Positions 25,966-38,000 of a stretch of DNA of 64,000 nucleotides are shown here, piece after piece. Origin of the DNA: Echinarachnius parma (Eukaryota > Echinodermata > Echinoidea > Clypeasteroida > Echinarachniidae); NCBI GenBank assembly GCA_037951105.1, contig JBAMJV010007134.1:62001-126000 (forward strand). Direction: 5' to 3'. Under the pieces are notes generated by a model. It ran no database searches and had not been told where the DNA came from. It saw nothing but the letters and a program-made list of their open reading frames with translations. The position numbers and the translations under genes were made by a program. Numbering within the stretch: the stretch's first letter is position 1; each line of letters opens with the position of its first letter.

Positions 25966-26016
25966 TCAACCGACGGTCAAGGTGTTGTTGGGACCAAACT
26001 CTCCATCAACGGTTGC
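25966..26016 (-). CDS. Giant gene terminal exon e35: end of CBM48 and stop codon
   Basis: Acceptor CTTATCAG|GCA at phase 0, then ATVDGEFGPNNTLTVG and TGA. The NN followed by a short beta strand matches the last strand of CBM48 domains (VNNIIQV in AMPK beta1, where an Asn contacts sugar). It continues in frame from both e34A and e34B. The protein therefore ends with the CBM48 domain itself. Confidence 0.82.
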   Translation of the reverse strand, partial: ATVDGEFGPNNTLTVG

Positions 26017-29000
26017 CTGATAAGGAACAAGATTGAAAGATATTAAATAATTTAAAATAAAATAAAGTCAAAGCAAAATGAAATCAAAGCTAATCAAATT
26101 TGAAATTTGTTATCTTAGGGTATATCCTTTCCATGTAAGGTTTGCTTAATGAGCATTGTTATAAAAAAACAAAAAATCTTTTTAAAATAACATATTATGT
26201 TTGGAATAAAATCAGAAAACTATTTAAACAATAAAGATGAAACAACAAAAATATATCAATTTAACTCATTGAGACAAAATAAATCATTTAGGAAATTACT
26301 TTCTCCTCCAAATTTCATGTTGGGAATATATAATATTTATTCTCTCAAGTCTTATCAGAAAACTTTTCTCAACTACTCAGAACAAATTTGCTGTGAAAAT
26401 ATTCAACTGATGAGCCAAAGAAAGAAGACGGCGGGGGAAAAAATGAGATGAATTGGTTTTTATAACTGGTAAAAAAAAAAAAAAAATCAAAGATGTGAAA
26501 TTGTACCGAATCTATACAAGAAATGCATTTTAAAAATTTGTATCACTATACAGTAACATAAAATGAACAAAAAAGGAACAATAACATGTATTTAAGAGCA
26601 AATAATATACATGTAAAGCAGTTAAAATATAACATCAGGCATTTCTCTACTACAAAGAATACATAAATGCAATATAACACTATTATCCTAACTACTATCA
26701 AAATGTAAACATGTAAATTACATACTATGAGTTACAACAACGGTTAGCATGTATGTATGTATACACTTTATATTCATATACTCTATATTTATCTGCACAT
26801 TGAAGCATAATCTACTGATTGATAAACAAACTAAATTTAATAATTCCTGCTTTTCAGGTTTCACAATGCCATAGCCGCAATAATTTGCAGAAGCACAAAT
26901 AAAAACATACATGAAGAAAAAAATTTGTTAATTTTCTCTTTTATTTTGGTTAGAATATACATCTGTAATTAATCATAGTGTTGCTTTGTGACAATGTGAC
27001 CGGCTACAGCAAAACCCTGCACTTGTGGGTAAAAATCAAAATGTAGATTTTCATACCATTAGAAAGGCCTCATCACAAGCTTTCATCTGATGCTTTGTTC
27101 TTACAAATTGGTCAATAATTAGTGAAGATATAATTGTTTCAATTTTACAATCATAAGTCTTTAACACACATTATGTGAACTTAAAATGCCAATTTCTTCA
27201 TAACATGAATTACAGACAAGTGCAGGGTTTTGCTATAGCCGGTCACATACATGTATACATGTACTATTATCTAATGAGCTAAATCATGCAAAAACAGATT
27301 AGCATTTTTTGACATTTATAGTAGCATTAAAGTGATCCATTAACTTTGTGAAAATTAAACCAAAATCACTTGCAGCTTTCACACTTCTCTTGTGCCTTGT
27401 TGTTTGGCTTGTGGTAACAGAAGGATTCAATGAGTTTTGATTTTTCAAATGTCTCCCTAATCATGGTGATATTTAAGATTGAATTTTGGATTCAAATTTG
27501 GATACTTCACGTGAATGATTGGGATAAAATCAGATATCTATTGACTATTTACTCTTTTTCACTAGGTAAAAGTTACTCCTTTTCTATGAAAATGTCACAT
27601 GATATTGGTATGATTGAAGCCTCAAATATCACATTGGGGGGAAAAAAATATAAAGTTAATGGACTAGAAAGGAATTCACCTAGAGACCTGCAGGAAATGG
27701 ATACATTCAGACCTGTCTTAGTGGCCAACTGTCTATAGCAGCCAACCTGCCTCCAGTAGTACAGAGTATAGTAGCCGCCAAAACTGATCCCCATCAGAGA
27801 AAAACAGTGTTATGGAACCGGTCTATACAGGTCACCTGTCTAAAGTGGCCACTTTACTCATTTCCCTAATACATGTAGTCACTATACGCAGGTTTCACTG
27901 TGCAAAGTAAATACTTTTAACGGTTCTGGGCCCCGTTGCAGAAAGCAGGCGCGCCGATTCCATCCGAAAACACAATGCATTGGGGGGGCAGAGCATTGTT
28001 CACAAACAATGCTCGCCCCCCCAATGCATTGTGTTTTCGGATGGAATCGGCGCCGGTGGCAGAAAGAGATACAATCGATTGTAAGTTACGATTGATTGTA
28101 AGTCAGAAAATTTGCGCGTTTCCACCAATCAGATTTGCGCATCAAGAACACATGACCAGACTTACAATTAATTGTAACTTACAATCGATCGTATCTCTTT
28201 CTGAAACGGGACCTAGGACTGATATCAAGGATCATTTTTGGTGGCTACTACTATACTGTACTCTGTAGGCAGGTTAGCTGTTAGGGCAGGATGGATGCTA
28301 GAGTAATACATGTTATACCAAAATCTATTTTTCCTAAACAGCTTTCTCTACTCACCTCCATTTCCTTATGTCCACTTGTTTTAACCCTTGCAAGACTATG
28401 GTATTTGTTTTTGGTATAACATATATTCTGCATAATTCCCAGCCTAAATGTAAGTATTTCCGCGCCAGTCCTCAATCAAAACCCATGTAAAAAAAAAGCT
28501 AATTATAACGCTAAGCATTCTAGATGAACACAAAATATACAAACATTGCTCAACTGACAATAAGCGAAGCACTAATTATGCACAGATACACTAATGATTC
28601 AAGATATTATAGGTACAACACATCTACACTATTCACTAATTTTAGAAGTTTTAAAATGATTCTTCATATGAAACACCAAGTAGATCTTGGTTTAAGTCGT
28701 ACCAAAAACTTTAAAAACGGTACCTACTGCCTTCTAGTCTGGCACTTGGCATTTATAGAATTGATAGAATTTATACATGCACATAACTATCAGAGGACTA
28801 GCCCTCTTTTGCAGCTTTCATTACTCGAGTGTAAACTAGGGCTACTCAAAACAAAAATAGGTGCTGCCATAAAAATGTACCAAATCGGCACAGGAAGGAA
28901 TTTCCCGTCATTTACAGCTTTGTTTGTATGGTGAACAAATGTCAAAATGATTCTTCATAAGAAACATCAACTGAAGAGCTCATATGAAGAAGCCAATAAA

Positions 29001-32000
29001 ACCATTTTTACCAATTCAAGATTAAACAAGCTGAAAAATATGAAAATAATAAGTTTATATGTCACATATAAACTTATCTCCCCAAACAACTTTGTTAAAG
29101 GGGACCACCAGCCAAAGAACAACACATAATTATATGTTTTGGAACCGTTTTGTGATATCAAATAGATACCCAACATTTTGCAAAGGGTTGTGTAATTCAT
29201 AAACAAAGCAATTAATTTCCACCACCTACGGAACCACTATTATTTCCTGGTTCTGTACGGGCCAAACGTTTGCGAGTGCGCCAATGCTATTCACGCGTAC
29301 ATTTGGAGACAATAGAATCCCGGACGATTCGTTCGCTCTGGACAAAGTAGTCTTCATACATGCAGACCCATGAACGCATGCTTTAGAATGGTGATGCGTT
29401 TTCCAATTTTTTTTTTTATTTTTTCTGGAAACATATTTTTGTGAATTTGTTGATGGAATGGACTACTAAAGATGTTACCTTTCATTTATAAGAATATTAT
29501 TTTTGGGTGGTGGTACCCTTTAAGCAATGGGTAAGGTATGATTTAAAAGACAATATTTTGTGTATACAATGGTACCCTTACCTTCAAAGTTATGAAAATG
29601 GCATTCTTCAGTTTTTATATATGAACTCTTCAACTACAGATGAACTAATAGCACCATTCTAATCATTTCACTTTGACTATAGGCAAAACAATATATATTT
29701 ATGCACAGTGTGAAACACCAAACATAGATGAACTTAGCATCATTATAATAATTTCACTTTGACTAGAGGCAGAACAATATAAATTATATACATGTATATA
29801 TACTGTAGGCAAACAAAATGTTACAAAAACACCGTAAGGAAACATAGTTTCTTTACGGTGTTTCCTCACGTGACATCCTCGGGTGTTTTTGTAACGTTTT
29901 TTTGCCTATTTCACTACATCAACGCAGACCAACTTTTTAAACTTACATGTATGAAACAGTGCTGAAACACCAAACATAGATGAACTTTTTAGCATCATAA
30001 TAATAATTTCACTTTGACTGAAGACAGAACGATATATATGCAGAGTGTGAATGCACTAGGCTCATGACATCCTCACCTTCTTGTTGTCTACCTTGTCCTC
30101 CCCATCCACTACAAACTTGTACGCGTAGTCTCCCGCCAGGAGATCCACTTTAACACTGAAGCAGCCATCACTGTAGGGTGTGTGGTAACAGGTTTTCATT
30201 CATCATCAAACAACTGGCATTGAGACTATGGCATACATTGGGATCAAGCTATCCGCAGTGCACGCACACCTAGTAGTTTACTTCAAACTTTTTTCCAAAC
30301 CTTTTAGCTTATAATGCAGCCTAATTTGATTTTGATTTTGTTTTATTCTCAAACTTGTCTATTATATACTGAAAAATGAGAATGTTAATACATGTAACTG
30401 AAAACTAGGTGTGATGTCTTGAAGATAGCTTGATTTCTTTCAAATAAAAAAAATACCAGTTTGCTCCCACACATGCCCTTTTCATTAAAATCATAATCCC
30501 TCTGAAGTTTTGGTATGAATATGGGTGAATTTTCTATCCCAGTCTGACAATGTAGGCTCAGACGCTATGATGTCACATTGTGAGTTGGTATGCATGCCTC
30601 ATACGCATATCGTCTCTCAAGTTGCAACATCCAATGTGATAATCAAGAATGCACATTTGGGCGATTCCGGCAACGGACAGGAGCAATGAACCAAGCCATG
30701 CAAGCACGTTTATCAAGCCCACCTCACAATATGGGATCCGATCTGTTTTGAAGACCAATTCAGGATCTGAACCAGACTACAAGCATTTAATAGGCACATC
30801 TTGCTTTAGTTCAGATATGCAGAAAATGTTCTTCGGATCACTGAATTGGATCCTGTAGAGTGCGATGAGTTTGAAACACTTGACATCATGATGCCTCAGT
30901 CCACATAGTCGACGTATGATCAAAATTGTCTCCAATGACAGATGAATAATGGTGACAAAAAAAAAGAGGACCCATAAACATGATCCGAGTGACCAGAGAA
31001 GAGCATGTATGAGGGTGAAGCAAACTGATAACAAGATGGATAATGAATATGACGACTGATTAACCCTCTCAGGACCAGAGTTATGTGAGGGCCATTAAAG
31101 CCATCACATATATCATGCCCCTAGGGTACTGGAAGGGTAATAGAAATACAGTCAAACCTGTCTTCGTGGCCACCAAAAGTGATCTCCTGTAGTGAAAAAC
31201 AATGTAATAGTACCTGTCTATAAAGGTCACCTGTCCACATTGACCACTTTTCCTTTTGGTGGCCACTATACACAGGTTTGACTGCAAATGTTTGACCGGC
31301 AGCCACGTTACCTGTCTCAGACTGGCCCTCCACTGCCCATCTACGACAAACTTGTATGTCCACACTCCGGGGTTGAGGAAGACTTTATGTGAGAACATTC
31401 CATCATCACTGCCTTCAGCAATAGCATTAGAGGGACAGTGGCACAGGGGTGATACATAGGAGGGTGGGGGTGGGGTGGGTGGAAGGGGTGAAAGGGGTAA
31501 TTGGGTGGTAAGAGTGTTGAGGTAGAAGGGGTGTGAGGGAAAGTTGAGTGGTATGAGGGGGGGGGGGGAGGGGGTAAGAGAAGGGGTGTAACGGATAGTT
31601 GAGTGGTAAGAGGGTGGGGGAGAAGGGGTGCAATGGGTAGTTGAGTGGTAGGAGGGTTTGAGGTAAAAGGGATGTCAGGGGTAGATGAGTAGTAGGAGGG
31701 TGGGAGGGGGTTGAAGGGGTGTAAGGTGTAGTTAAGTTGTAGGAGGTTGGGGGGGGGGGGGGGAGAGAAGGGGTGTAAGGGGTAATTGAGTGGTAGGAGG
31801 TTGGGGTGTAGTTAAGTTGTAGTAGGGTAGGGGTGTAAGGGGTAGTTGAGTGGTAGGAGGTTGGGGGTAGAAGTGGTAAGGGGTAGTTGAGTGGTAGGAG
31901 GTTGGGGGTAGAAGGGGTAAGGGGTAGTTGAGTGGTAGGAGGTTTGTGGTAAAAGGGAAGTAAGGGATAGGTGAGAGGTAGGAGGTTGGGGTAGAAGGGG

Positions 32001-35000
32001 TGTAAGGGGTAGTTGAGTGGGAGGAGGTTAGAGGTAGAAGGGATGTAGGGGGTAGTTGAGTGGGGTAGAAGGGTGTAAGGGGTAGTTGAAAGGTTGGGGA
32101 TGGGGTACAAGGGGTGTAAAGGGAAATCGAGTGGTAGGAAGTTGGGGGTAGAAGGGGTGAAAGAAGGTGGGGGGTAGAATTGGTGTAAGGGGTAAGTGGG
32201 TGGTAGGAGGGTGTTAGATTCAGCATTATAGCAATATAGTGAGATACAGGAATGACGTAGTAGGGGTTAAGTGGAGTTGGGGTCGGTGGGGTATATTAAG
32301 GTAGTTTAGGATAGCCAGGTAGAAGGAGTGGTGGTGGTGGTGGTGTTGGCAGTGTTGGGGTGGGGTTAGACAATAAGTGTAGGTGGTTGCCAGGAGAGGG
32401 TTATATAGATTATAGATAAGTGATGAGTGATTGAGCAAGATATAGCAATGCAACGAACAAATACAAGACAAAACAAGACAAGACCAGTTTGTAGACAAAT
32501 GAATATGATAATTTGAGTGTTGCGAAAATAGATATGTACCATCAAATTAAAATTGTCATATACATTGTTGTATGTGCATAAGTGTGTTGGTAGAAGGGTG
32601 TAGTAAATGTAATGAAGAATCAATATGTTGGGATGTAAATTTAAACAAAAAACAATGTAATATTACAAAGTAAATTAATGAGTTTGAATTACAATGATTT
32701 TAATATGGTGATGAGTTTTTCAAATTAAAAATGTCACAAGAAAATGTACGTACGAAACAAGTGAAAAGAATGAAATGAGTTTGAATTATGGAAGAATAGA
32801 GGAAATTGTCCATGAAACCATTTAAAGGAGGAGAGAAGCAAGAGAAGTACAACACAAAAAGAAGAAAAAAAGAAAACATAAACAAATTACACCACTGAGA
32901 AAAATATCAATGAACGTAAATTTAACTTATGAGCTCATGCAACATGCACAATGGACTTTGTGTACAAAACAAGCAACTACTTTTACTTGGCTTTTGCTTG
33001 GGGACAAATTCAAACAATAAATATTCTTCTACCACAGTTCGCCCCAAGCAAAATCCTTTTAAAAGCAATTGCCCTTTTTAAATGAACATGACCTAATGTC
33101 TAGTGTTTGAAAATTAATTTATGAGAACATTAAACAAATTTACGAATTGTGAGTAATGACAAACATGTAGTTTTTATATGGTGGTTATCAATGTTACTAG
33201 ATCTGTCAATGTTTATAAATGTTTTCTTTTCTTACTACTCTGTTTTCACATTGAATTATTGATTCGGCAACAATTGAAGCGTGCATTTGGTTATTTGGTT
33301 GCAGATTGCATGTTCTTCAGCCAATGTATTCATTCTTATTATTACACGTTTCTTATTAATAAAGCGTAGCGATATCTTGGCATGCATCATGCAGTTTCTG
33401 GTTGGCAAGAGGTGGCTTAACTTTATGATTACACATGAATACACTGGTTACTTTGGAGAGTGGACGTATTATAAAATTAGGAACATTTCAAATAATAAAT
33501 TATTCAATTGTCTCTGAATTCTACTCTAAGTGTAATAACTTAACAAACTTTTAAAAAATACGATGGCCAGTACCTCAATTGTTTAATCCCGACAAAACTT
33601 TCACCCCTCCCAAATCCCCTTAAAAATAGTAGGATTAGGTATTATTTTCATTAATGAAATTCATATATATTTTTTAATTTTCATACTGCAGTATTATTGG
33701 TAGAAACACTTTTTTAACACAATTTTAAAAGTATCCTTCTTTCACAGAAGTTGTAATCTATAGAAAATTTCTCCAATGATTTTTTCAAAATTTGCACCCC
33801 CCCCCCCCCAAAAAAAATGATAAACAGCAAAAAATTCTTATTTTTTCAGGTTCCATGAGTCATTTTCTTCATGGCAAGGCCAGGGAATTCCCCACTGACA
33901 TGGAGTACGCATGGAATGGATATACGTGTACGCACACTTGGTTGAGCTGTATCTGTTCTTTCCAGTCGTTGAAGCTCCCCGTCACAAACACCTCCTGCCC
34001 CCCTTCCTCCCAGCGGAACTCCACCGCCACCTTCCCTGCCGGTGCCTGCTCCCCCGATGGGCCGTCTGAGAAAGAAAACAAACGTTACATTTTATTGAAA
34101 AAAAATAACAGTGCGGTATTAAACACCCCCTTCCTCCAAGCGGAACTCTACCGCCACTAACAGTGCTGTATTAAACAAACACTTCATGACTTTTGCAAAC
34201 CTTTCTTAGTGGTCTCTGCTTCCCCCAAGGACTGTCTGAAAAAGAAAACAACAACTTCATTTGATCAAATTGATACATGCTTTTTTTCTTGTTTCTTTTA
34301 AGATCGCAGTAACAAACACTTCCGGTCCCAACTAAACTTTTCACGCTGGTGACTGTCCCCCAACCCTCCCCCCCCCCCCACCCACAAACCATCTACAAAC
34401 AACAGAGAAAACAACCAGTGCGGTAGGAACAAAAAAATATTGTACAAATAATGTAGGAAAAAAATGATGTCATGATCTTTCCTTTCAGCAAATGAAGTTC
34501 TTGTCAGAAACACACCCTTTCCTCTTTCCTCACAACGGAACTCCACGCAAGACTGTTCTGCCGTTGTCTGTTCCCTCTGTGGTCCATTTCAAAACAAAAA
34601 TAAAAGCTATTTTCTTTGAAAAAGTGCAACTAAATATTCTACTATCAATCAAAACATCATACACAATTTATCTTTGTATGTGGACATCCACCCCACCCCC
34701 CCCCCCCAACAAATTTTTTTTTTTTTAATTTTTTTTATTGGTGTTACCCGCCCACTCTTAACATTTCCCAACTCATTGTGTGCTAACAAAAGCTTGGCAG
34801 ACATCTTTAGGCATTGTGACCCTAGTAGCCTAAAGGTCACAGCGAAGATTGAAAAGTAGTCTTCAAAAATCAGTATTTTTCCTTTTATAATACAAACAAG
34901 ACAAATATTTTTGAATAAAAATGAGGCTCAATACATGACCCCAATAATTCTTGGCATAGATTCCTGGCATTTTTTGACAAACAAAAATTGGCTTTTGTAG

Positions 35001-38000
35001 TCTGTTCCAAATAAATAAAACAAACTGTAAGACTGTAAGAAAAAACAGCAACACTGACGATATATCATAGCGATTTATGGAAATTCCTCTGTCACCTTTC
35101 GATGCCCCTTTTCATTACTCATCAAATTCAGGTTTAGTATTTCCCTCTTTGATGATTCTAATTGGCAGAGGACTGAGCCTGAGAAATCCCTGGCTGGAAT
35201 CTAAGGAAAATCTTTTACCATTCAACATCATTATATAGAATTTGTTTCAAACTGGGATCGTGACAGTCAGAACTATCAACCTCAAAAAACTCTGTGCTAT
35301 AAAACTCACACATGCAGCCTGAATATATATAACAGATCCATAACAGGTCAATTTCTCAAAGCATCTAACATATTTAGTGCACCATTTCAATGATGTTGGA
35401 CTCAAATTAAAGGGTATCACATTTTTCTTCCAAAGCAGAAATCTGAATCGGAGTAATGTTACATATAATGAACAGGAATATTACGATGTATTATAAACTC
35501 TTTTTCTTGAGTTGCATTGCCCTTTAAAGTACTCACCCTGCCCCTCAAAAAGTAAACAAGAAAAAAGAGCATCTAAAGCTTTTTTCCTAATGTTGGAGCA
35601 CTCTAAAGTTCTAATGCATGGAACATGATTCAGATTCAGTGTGTAAATTTACTGGAGACAAAAATTAGCAAGTTTATATTCTTGTCCTCACTAGTGACTG
35701 CTAATTTGTCAATGTATAAAACATGATTTATAACAATTGTGGCAATTTTAAGCTGTCAGAATTACTAACCCCCCACAAATTTGTTTATTAAATGAGCAAT
35801 TTTCCCCTAGTTCTCACTCGTGACTGCTGGTGTGCTATCGTCAGCCTCCTTGGTTTCCACGGTGACTGCTTCCTTTGGTGCGGCGGGATCCTCTGCGGCA
35901 GGAGGAGCATCTCTGTTGGCTGCAGGGGCAGAGGGCTCTTCAGCGGGCTTCTCAGTTGTTGGGGTAGCCTCTTCAACAGCAACCTGCTCAGGCTGGGGCA
36001 CTGCCTCCTCCACTGGCGCTGCTTCTGTCTGAACTACTGGCTCTGGTTCAACTGGAGCCTAGTTGGAAAAGAAAGAACAGAAACAGGTTTCCTTAACACT
36101 TTCATTCATTTTGGGTAATCGTTTTTCATGATGTCAGTGGTTCAGAGAAAGTTGACTAGGACGACTCTTCAACCGCAACCTGCTCAGGCTGGGGCACTGC
36201 CTCCTCCACTGGGACTGCCTTTGTCTGACATACTTACTGGCTATGGTTCAACTGGGGCCTATAGTTGGATAGGAGAGGATGGGAACAGGTTTGTTTTATT
36301 TATTACACTTTGATTAGTTAGTGTTAGCTGTTAAATTAAAGTTGGCTATGAATACACCTTCCAACAGCGCGACCTGCTAGGGAACCGGCCTGTACCACTG
36401 GGGCTGCCTCTTTCTCTATTATACTGGCTCTTGTTCTACTGAAGCATGTAGTAATGATAAGAGAGGATTGAAAAGGGTTTTCTTAACACTTATATTTATA
36501 ATTGTTACTATTTTTAAACATTTGTTTAAATGGAGCCTGTCAAATTTGCATAAAGTTCTGTATCAGTGCCAACTAGTGGCGGCTCAGGATCATATTGTGC
36601 CTGTTTGTCAAACAAGCCAGAATATTGTGACCTTCCAATTTGTAAGGCTCAAACACAGCTTGAAAAGGACAAAATCTGAAAGAAACACAGCAAACTCTAG
36701 TACAATACCTCAGGTGCCTGTTCCTGTGAGGGTTCATTTGCCACAGATGGAGTTTCCTCCACTGCATCATACGTTTCTGCAGAGGCCTACAGTGAGCAAG
36801 AGGAAAGAAAGTGCTAGGGTGTCTTCTAGGAAACATCGTCGACCAAAACTTGTCTGGTCTTCATATTTCTCAAAATAAAAAATATATCACTATGGAAACC
36901 TTCCTCGCTTACAACTACTCTTTTCAAAACCAGTGAAAACAAATAGAATATTCATTCTGATAACCAGGTCATGGACTTTGAAATAAAATATGGAGAAACA
37001 TGGAAAGCAGCTTTAAAGAACACAGCAATCTCAGGCAAAATAACTCATGTGCCTGTTCCTGTGAGGGTTCTGTTGTCACAGGTGGAGTTTCCTCCTCAGC
37101 ATCAGGGGTTTCTGCAGATGGAGCTTCAATGGCATCATGTGTTTCTAAAGATGGAGGATCCTCTACTGGATTAGGAGTTTCTGAAAATGGAGTTTTCTCC
37201 ACTGCATCAGGTGAATCTGCAGATTTCCTCTACTGCATCAGGCTTTTCTTCAAGTGGAGTTTCCTCCACTGCATCAGGGGTTTCTGCAGATGGAGTTTCA
37301 CCCACTGCATCAGGTGTTGTTTCTGAAGATGGAGTTTCCTCCACTGCATCAGGGGTTTCTGAAGATGGAGTTTCCTCTACTGCATCAGTCTTTTCTTTGG
37401 ATGGAGTTTCCTCCACTGTATCAGGGGTTTCTTCAGATGGAGTTTCCTCAACTGCATCAGGCTTTTCTTCAGATGGAGTTTCCTCCACTGTATCAGGGGT
37501 TTCTTCAGATGGAGTTTCATCCACTGCATCAGGTGTTTCTGCAGATGGAGTTGCATCCACTGCATCAGGCTTTTCTGTAGATGGAGTTTCCTCGACTTCA
37601 TCAGGTGTTTCTGCAGATGGAGTTTCCTCTACTTCTGCAGATGGAGTTTCCTCCACTGCATTAGGCGTTTTTGCAGGGGCCTTAAATGGGCAAGGAGAGA
37701 AATTGCTAGGGTTTCTGTACAGAACCACCATCAACTATAACATTTATTCATGAGACCTTTCAGAAAAGTGTATTTATCTTCATTGAAACTTGATAAAACT
37801 ACAAACATTTCTCTCTTCAAAACTGGCCCTCAATTTAATAATCAACACATGCAAGCAGACAAGAGTTCTGGATCATGTAAATATAAAGAAATTTACCAAA
37901 ATTAGATCATCGTAATACGTAATAAACCATGAAAAACAATGGAACAAAATGATATTAATTTTTAAAAAAGACATGGAACTTAAAATAAAATGTGGCAATA

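Follow-up and report, generated by a model that had tools for sequence, protein, structure and literature searches.

Can one exon that encodes the first half of a carbohydrate-binding domain be joined to two alternative second halves? The question arises from a long, acidic, repeat-built gene on the minus strand of an Echinarachnius parma contig, whose product carries a C-terminal AMPK1_CBM (CBM48) domain and which adjoins an AMPK-beta gene. We analysed a window of 64,000 nucleotides (contig C7125, positions 62001-126000) from an assembly of 1.2 Gb in 14790 contigs; within it, the exons of interest follow one another on the minus strand, 5' to 3', as e32, e33, e34A, e34B and e35 (Table 1). A preliminary description had read e34A and e34B as mutually exclusive exons, and the coordinates and lengths that it gave for them (97 and 94 nt) are correct. 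The pair itself is confirmed by our analysis; what had been overlooked are the decayed copies of e33 that lie nearby. We consider it likely that e34A and e34B represent an alternative, effectively mutually exclusive pair that arose by tandem exon duplication, is enforced by the reading frame and tunes glycogen binding.

Table 1. Features of the repeat gene, the neighbouring AMPK-beta gene and the surrounding repeats. Positions are those of the window unless a contig or locus is named.
Feature	Position	Strand	Description
e32	35818..36058	-	Final repeat-type exon ahead of the CBM exons; Pro/Ala/Glu-rich; phase 0 in, phase 1 out
e33	33936..34065	-	First half of CBM48/AMPK1_CBM; carries the W100 equivalent; donor CAAGT/gtgcgt, phase 2
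e34A	31312..31408	-	Second half of CBM, 97 nt; DGQW kept (W133 equivalent)
e34B	30077..30170	-	Alternative second half of CBM, 94 nt; DGED where e34A has DGQW
e35	25966..26016	-	Last coding exon: final CBM strand (ATVDGEFGPNNTLTVG) and stop
Decayed e33 copy	34475..34587	-	Identity 81/116 columns; four 1-nt gaps; acceptor AG lost; 2/3 frames interrupted by stops
Second decayed e33 copy	34126..34236	-	Fragmentary and rearranged; 35/43 identical at 34168-34126
C-rich minisatellite, ~42-nt unit	31456..32158	-	Transcript strand 78% pyrimidine; array ends 47 nt before e34A
Foldback (MITE-like) repeat	31145..31287	-	First arm begins ~27 nt past e34A, on either contig
AMPK-beta CBM exons 2 and 3	C7125:61609-60903	-	PF16561 matches
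AMPK-beta AMPKBI exons, two	C7125:55681-55601, 53940-53869	-	Above the AMPKBI cut-off
AMPK-beta CBM and AMPKBI region	L006 9711-5281	-	PF16561 and AMPKBI searches

Exon layout, reading frame and domain match

Each of the two exons begins needing two bases and ends in phase 0, with the borders AG/T GAT GAT ... AGA CAG/GTAACG for e34A and AG/T GAT GGC ... AAG AAG/GTGAGG for e34B (slashes mark exon borders). The spliced reads e32-e33-e34A-e35 and e32-e33-e34B-e35 are both open and reach a common stop in e35, in agreement with the earlier claim that both exons start in phase 2, end in phase 0 and continue in frame into e35. The use of both exons or of neither had been said to shift the frame, and the spliced reads bear this out: e34A followed by e34B gives TGA at the junction, as the first codon of e34B and 91 nt upstream of the last junction, while the omission of both shifts the frame into a stop within e35. 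In the mechanism that we propose, e33 would be spliced to e34A or to e34B and then to e35, yielding two complete C-terminal CBM48 domains with the first half and the last strand in common; transcripts including both exons would be predicted to undergo mRNA decay, and those skipping both would encode half a domain. The letters strongly indicate that e34A and e34B are both intact and each code for the same half-domain; their alternative use is likely, and mutual exclusivity through the frame is plausible.

Both isoforms exceed the curated cut-off of the Pfam family AMPK1_CBM (PF16561, 26.8 bits) by a wide margin, at 77.8 bits (E 7.3e-22) for isoform A and 80.9 bits (E 8.1e-23) for isoform B, which upholds the earlier statement that the two align to one part of the AMPK-beta CBM48 fold; their best PDB matches are AMPK beta-2 and beta-1. 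With a profile built only from AMPK beta-1 and beta-2, the frame of e34A takes first place (E 0.0014) and that of e34B second (E 0.0038) when all 3103 six-frame segments in the window are ranked; the segment in third place has E 1.4. The two encoded proteins are identical at 15 of 31 residues, compared with a mean of 2.2 and a maximum of 8 in 2000 column shuffles. At the DNA level, 56 of 93 columns agree, and the score of 126 stands against shuffled maxima of 115 (e34A as query) and 111 (e34B as query), obtained from 12 queries shuffled in three-base blocks; since the DNA sequences are barely alike, kinship rests on the protein comparison.

The first half of the domain appears to be common to both versions. 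A profile including e34A and e34B detected in the window neither a second intact first-half exon for e34B nor a third second-half exon; it returned one intact first half and two weak, decayed ones, the high scores of the window's own exons being a matter of construction. Across the whole assembly, with 12 of 12 candidates scored, PF16561 gave 11 matches: five exons (AMPK-beta exons 2 and 3, e33, e34A and e34B) on two contigs each and one weak match (E 2.74). The two first halves scored above the cut-off as single exons (36.6 and 38.8 bits), as did AMPK-beta exon 3 (40.3 bits), which also exceeds e34A (26.1 bits) and e34B (25.0 bits); the latter two fall below the cut-off, so a much more divergent exon could escape this search. 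Within that sensitivity, e33 is the sole intact first half found for e34A or for e34B. The proposal that one first-half exon serves two second halves is thus matched by a genome in which PF16561 detects just one further first half, that of AMPK-beta, and two situations named beforehand as contrary to it, an e34B with its own first half and a joining of e34A to e34B through an unseen exon, find no sequence support in the window profile or the genome search.

The frame argument is most vulnerable at the donor of e33, since it requires the phase-2 site CAAGT/gtgcgt and this site is weak. Were an overlapping donor two bases earlier (CAA/gtgtgc, phase 0) used instead, translation into e34A or e34B would meet a stop, and an untrained splice-site matrix scored the phase-2 site (AGT/gtgcgt) at -0.68 and the phase-0 site at 0.54. 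The homologous intron of AMPK-beta is in phase 2, which points to the phase-2 donor in e33.

Upstream of these exons, the gene consists of acidic repeat exons. We counted 33 acidic, repeat-like open segments in the window and 50 kb beyond it (63369-36058, minus strand, and beyond the right end); in 21 of them the automatic donor pick was GAG/gtatt or GAG/gtact, in phase 0. Some lie in near-identical blocks, for instance the 335-residue segments at 49203-48199 and 46293-45289. Exons of the type at 37734-36972 (minus strand) start and end in phase 0 and might be skippable, and this one shows a frame break and a lost GT donor on both contigs that carry the locus; its part at 37260-36960 is identical on the two, which makes a sequencing slip hardly an explanation. 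Upstream of e32, at 36435-36155 (minus strand), two partial, decayed copies of that exon, interrupted by in-frame stops, are seen by eye. Near C7125 position 171830 (minus strand, locus L022) lies a possible first exon, beginning MGKVFSKKSQGYDMGG. Like AMPK-beta, it opens with MG, and its donor is in phase 0; to link it to repeat exons ~42 kb away is a guess.

The adjacent AMPK-beta gene and other exon copies

The AMPK-beta gene lies directly downstream of the repeat gene on the same strand. Its spliced CBM exons match AMPK1_CBM at 118.1 bits, and in the whole genome AMPKBI scores above the cut-off only in this gene (two exons on two contigs), three other matches being sub-threshold. An exon starting MGNAG at about 3650-3480 of the window (minus strand) resembles what we take to be AMPK-beta exon 1; no Pfam family was found in this putative N-terminal exon. 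The intron between exons 2 and 3 is in phase 2 (AAA AG/gtcagt ... cag/T CAT GGT GAT), exon 3 is 94 nt long and ends in phase 0 (CGC CAG/gtaaga), and exon 4 begins in phase 0.

The exons e33, e34 and e35 match AMPK-beta exons 2, 3 and 4 in order, in position and in phase (2, then 0). The CBM48 cassette of the repeat gene would accordingly correspond to exons 2-4 of AMPK-beta (PRKAB), with which it has the domain family, the intron positions and the phases in common, e34B also sharing the 94-nt length of the middle exon. Unlike AMPK-beta, the repeat gene has two middle exons, places a long acidic repeat region ahead of the CBM and ends its protein with that domain, e35 closing the frame directly after it, so that the AMPKBI (ASC) domain is absent. 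Over the 31 residues compared, e34A and AMPK-beta are identical at 14 and e34B and AMPK-beta at 10, next to the 15 identities between e34A and e34B. We suggest that the middle exon of a three-exon cassette was duplicated in tandem to give e34A and e34B.

Other duplicates at the locus have decayed. The better-preserved e33 copy (34475-34587) scored 233, compared with a maximum of 154 for 12 shuffled queries, again in three-base blocks. The second is weaker, its piece at 34168-34126 scoring 143, below the top shuffled query. A possible third piece at 34363-34268 (minus strand; 69 of 123 columns, score 135) lies inside the shuffled range. Similarly, AMPK-beta exon 2 has three decayed fragments nearby, at L006 9979-9916, 9826-9758 and 9414-9334, with 58/64, 59/69 and 57/81 identical positions and scores of 258, 255 and 187, compared with a shuffled maximum of 130 (three-base blocks, 15 shuffles). 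Exon duplication as such is thus ordinary at this locus, a circumstance that tempers the finding; e34A and e34B are the copies that have stayed intact.

Possible constraint on e34B and competing readings of the pair

A second contig, C6917, was taken as the other haplotype of the locus, AMPK-beta included. It carries both e34A and e34B, and no difference between the contigs affects the AG or GT of e32, e33, e34A and e34B or the AG of e35. An assembly artefact or a pair of allelic duplicates was rejected as the origin of the two exons, given that both occur on both contigs and differ strongly from each other. Between contigs, e33 differs at 1 of 130 positions, e34A at 0 of 97, e34B at 2 of 94 and e35 at 0 of 51, the three changes being without exception synonymous; in e32, 5 of 241 positions differ, and 2 of the differences are amino-acid changing. 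A single-base change in e33 or e34B has a probability of about 20% of being synonymous, so the chance of three out of three is near 0.01, assuming that all changes are equally likely (about 0.04 for the two in e34B). We regard this synonymous-only pattern as modest evidence for constraint on the CBM exons.

Of 7794 aligned non-coding bases surrounding the exons, minisatellite left out, 157 differ (2.0%), and e34B changes at nearly the same rate (2.1%). With its 20-nt flanks, e34A is identical on C6917 over all 137 bases, for which the chance at the intron rate is about 0.06. This invariance says little when taken alone, since the identical run around e34A (186 bases) is exceeded by two runs in introns (265 and 226 bases) and the decayed e33 copies, with 3/113 and 2/136 differences, change no more than introns do. 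Two stretches of ~0.9 kb each on C6917 (8645-9497 and 16620-17541; L003 and L004) have no collinear counterpart in the window among the matches listed, and part of the first matches window 29523-29095 in inverted orientation.

Between e34A and e34B, 42 of 93 sites differ, giving a distance of 0.69; dS is 1.48 and dN 0.58, and the resulting dN/dS of about 0.4 comes from a small sample of 31 codons with dS near saturation. In a simulation of neutral drift from e34A (n=20000; indels assumed at 0.08 per substitution, a fifth of them frame-keeping), the frame, the splice sites and an e34B-like profile score were all kept in 3.98% of runs at a distance of 0.2, in 0.05% at 0.35 and in none at 0.5 or 0.69. 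A cruder and less severe simulation from e34B, scoring only frame and splice sites and allowing indels to cancel, left survivors in 5.6-7.0% of runs at 0.3, a share that fell to 2.3-2.4% at 0.5, to ~1% at 0.74 and to 0.2-0.3% at 1.48. The locus offers its own yardstick: the less diverged e33 copy (34587-34475; JC 0.35) already has four gaps and a lost acceptor. These models suggest that neutral decay seldom leaves an exon like e34B. A search for protein homologues returned one candidate and none at E 1e-6.

Against this background, we weighed three other readings of the pair. That e34A is constitutive and e34B a duplicate, rarely or never spliced in and yet to decay, is unlikely in our judgement. 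Such a reading would suit a locus where the e33 copies, the AMPK-beta exon 2 fragments and the repeat exon at 37734-36972 have all decayed, and where e34A, which retains W133, does not differ between contigs while e34B changes at the intron rate. It is hard to reconcile, however, with an A-B divergence (15/31 residues, dS ~1.5) that exceeds the divergence of the decayed e33 copy and at which e34B has nonetheless kept its frame and splice sites, with a family score near that of e34A in the genome search, with a donor that is the strongest of the five scored, and with simulations in which an intact e34B is an uncommon outcome. The unchanged 137 bases of e34A and its retention of the ligand Trp common to AMPK-beta argue in turn against a reading in which e34B is mainly used and e34A, confined between the minisatellite and the foldback repeat, is used poorly. 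We hold this second reading to be quite improbable, even though e34B has the length of AMPK-beta exon 3, a stronger donor (6.88, compared with 3.46, on the untrained matrix) and a better pyrimidine tract (0.7, compared with 0.5, or half of 20 bases, for the weak tract of e34A), and despite the C-rich array upstream and the hairpin repeat just downstream of e34A.

A third reading would have e34A and e34B used together, in a poison or regulatory arrangement: including both would truncate the protein or destine the mRNA for decay and thereby set the protein level. The intron between the two exons is 1141 nt long and all sites are GT-AG, so neither spacing nor spliceosome type forbids their joining, and no steric or U2/U12 block on joint inclusion is apparent; the stop at the first codon of e34B, at its distance from the last junction, would serve such an arrangement. 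In a survey of human mutually exclusive exons, joined reads are reported for 83 (22%) of 377 frame-incompatible clusters (PMC5740500), which, by the same figures, leaves most such clusters without them. A poison arrangement would also leave unexplained why e34B retains a CBM-coding frame, AMPK-like residues and changes that are only synonymous, and we judge it highly improbable.

In the preferred reading, an alternative pair held apart by the frame, the choice between e34A and e34B might involve elements around e34A. The minisatellite upstream differs in length between contigs, and an RNA hairpin is predicted downstream at 31130-31311 (-68.9 kcal/mol, z -5.64). Competing RNA structures were considered as a mechanism of choice; the hairpin by e34A belongs to a repeat that is found genome-wide in high copy, with at least 43 matches (40 of 1448 candidates scored). 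Inverted repeats occur in 29900-34100, with 34 pairs, 25 of them among the matches listed, and a further foldback (MITE-like) copy is seen by eye around 27640-27890.

Predicted glycogen binding and relation to known systems

The residue numbers of AMPK beta-1 used here are those that we take to correspond to the letters of the two isoforms. In rat AMPK beta-1, W100, K126, W133, L146 and T148 were suggested as carbohydrate contacts from the crystal structure, and their mutation is reported to have markedly cut glycogen binding (PMC2642990); for W133L, partial disruption of glycogen binding is ascribed to earlier work (PMC6274970). In our alignment, W100 (from e33) and K126 (from either second half) are present in both isoforms, whereas W133 is present in isoform A, within DGQW as in AMPK-beta, and replaced by Asp in isoform B (DGED). 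The L146 position, encoded by e35, is Phe in both isoforms, as in the animal's own AMPK-beta. T148 is missing from both (FGPNN in e35, compared with FGTVNN in AMPK-beta), so even isoform A may bind weakly. On these residues, isoform A should bind glycogen, perhaps weakly, and isoform B should bind it less or not at all; exon choice would then lower, abolish or change the glycogen binding of the long acidic protein.

Mutually exclusive exons arising by tandem duplication are a well-known class. Among human clusters of such exons, 377 (60%) are reported to contain exons not divisible by three, whose combined inclusion is described as giving non-functional transcripts (PMC5740500). As in the examples described there, e34A and e34B are homologous neighbours, alike in length and equal in phase, that encode one protein region twice; they differ from that set in being known from the genome only and in encoding one half of a carbohydrate-binding domain, the other half being common to both (PMC5740500). 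A close invertebrate parallel is the exon 10 pair of the alternative oxidase of the oyster Crassostrea virginica, which is reported at the mRNA level and to shift upon air exposure (PMC5589949). There too, a tandem-duplicated exon is described as having one copy that is better conserved among taxa and another altered near key functional sites, with splicing making the choice; the oyster exon is the last of an enzyme, while e34A and e34B are internal, belong to a binding domain and are read from genome sequence (PMC5589949). A narrow literature search on CBM exons and alternative splicing returned no half-CBM48 swap with gain or loss of a ligand Trp beside AMPK-beta.

With its likely parent, AMPK-beta, lying adjacent and having the same exon borders, the pair offers at one locus a record of origin and duplication, of the decay of sister copies and of divergence in function. 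Each CBM comprises ~90 residues, and the functional claim is thus directly testable with two recombinant domains. If the pair is used, splicing would exchange exactly half of a small carbohydrate-binding fold together with a residue needed for full glycogen binding. More tentatively, and with some doubt, we raise the possibility that a CBM cassette copied from AMPK-beta allows splicing to turn glycogen binding on (e34A) or off (e34B) in a giant acidic protein, and in this way to set whether this scaffold resides on glycogen.
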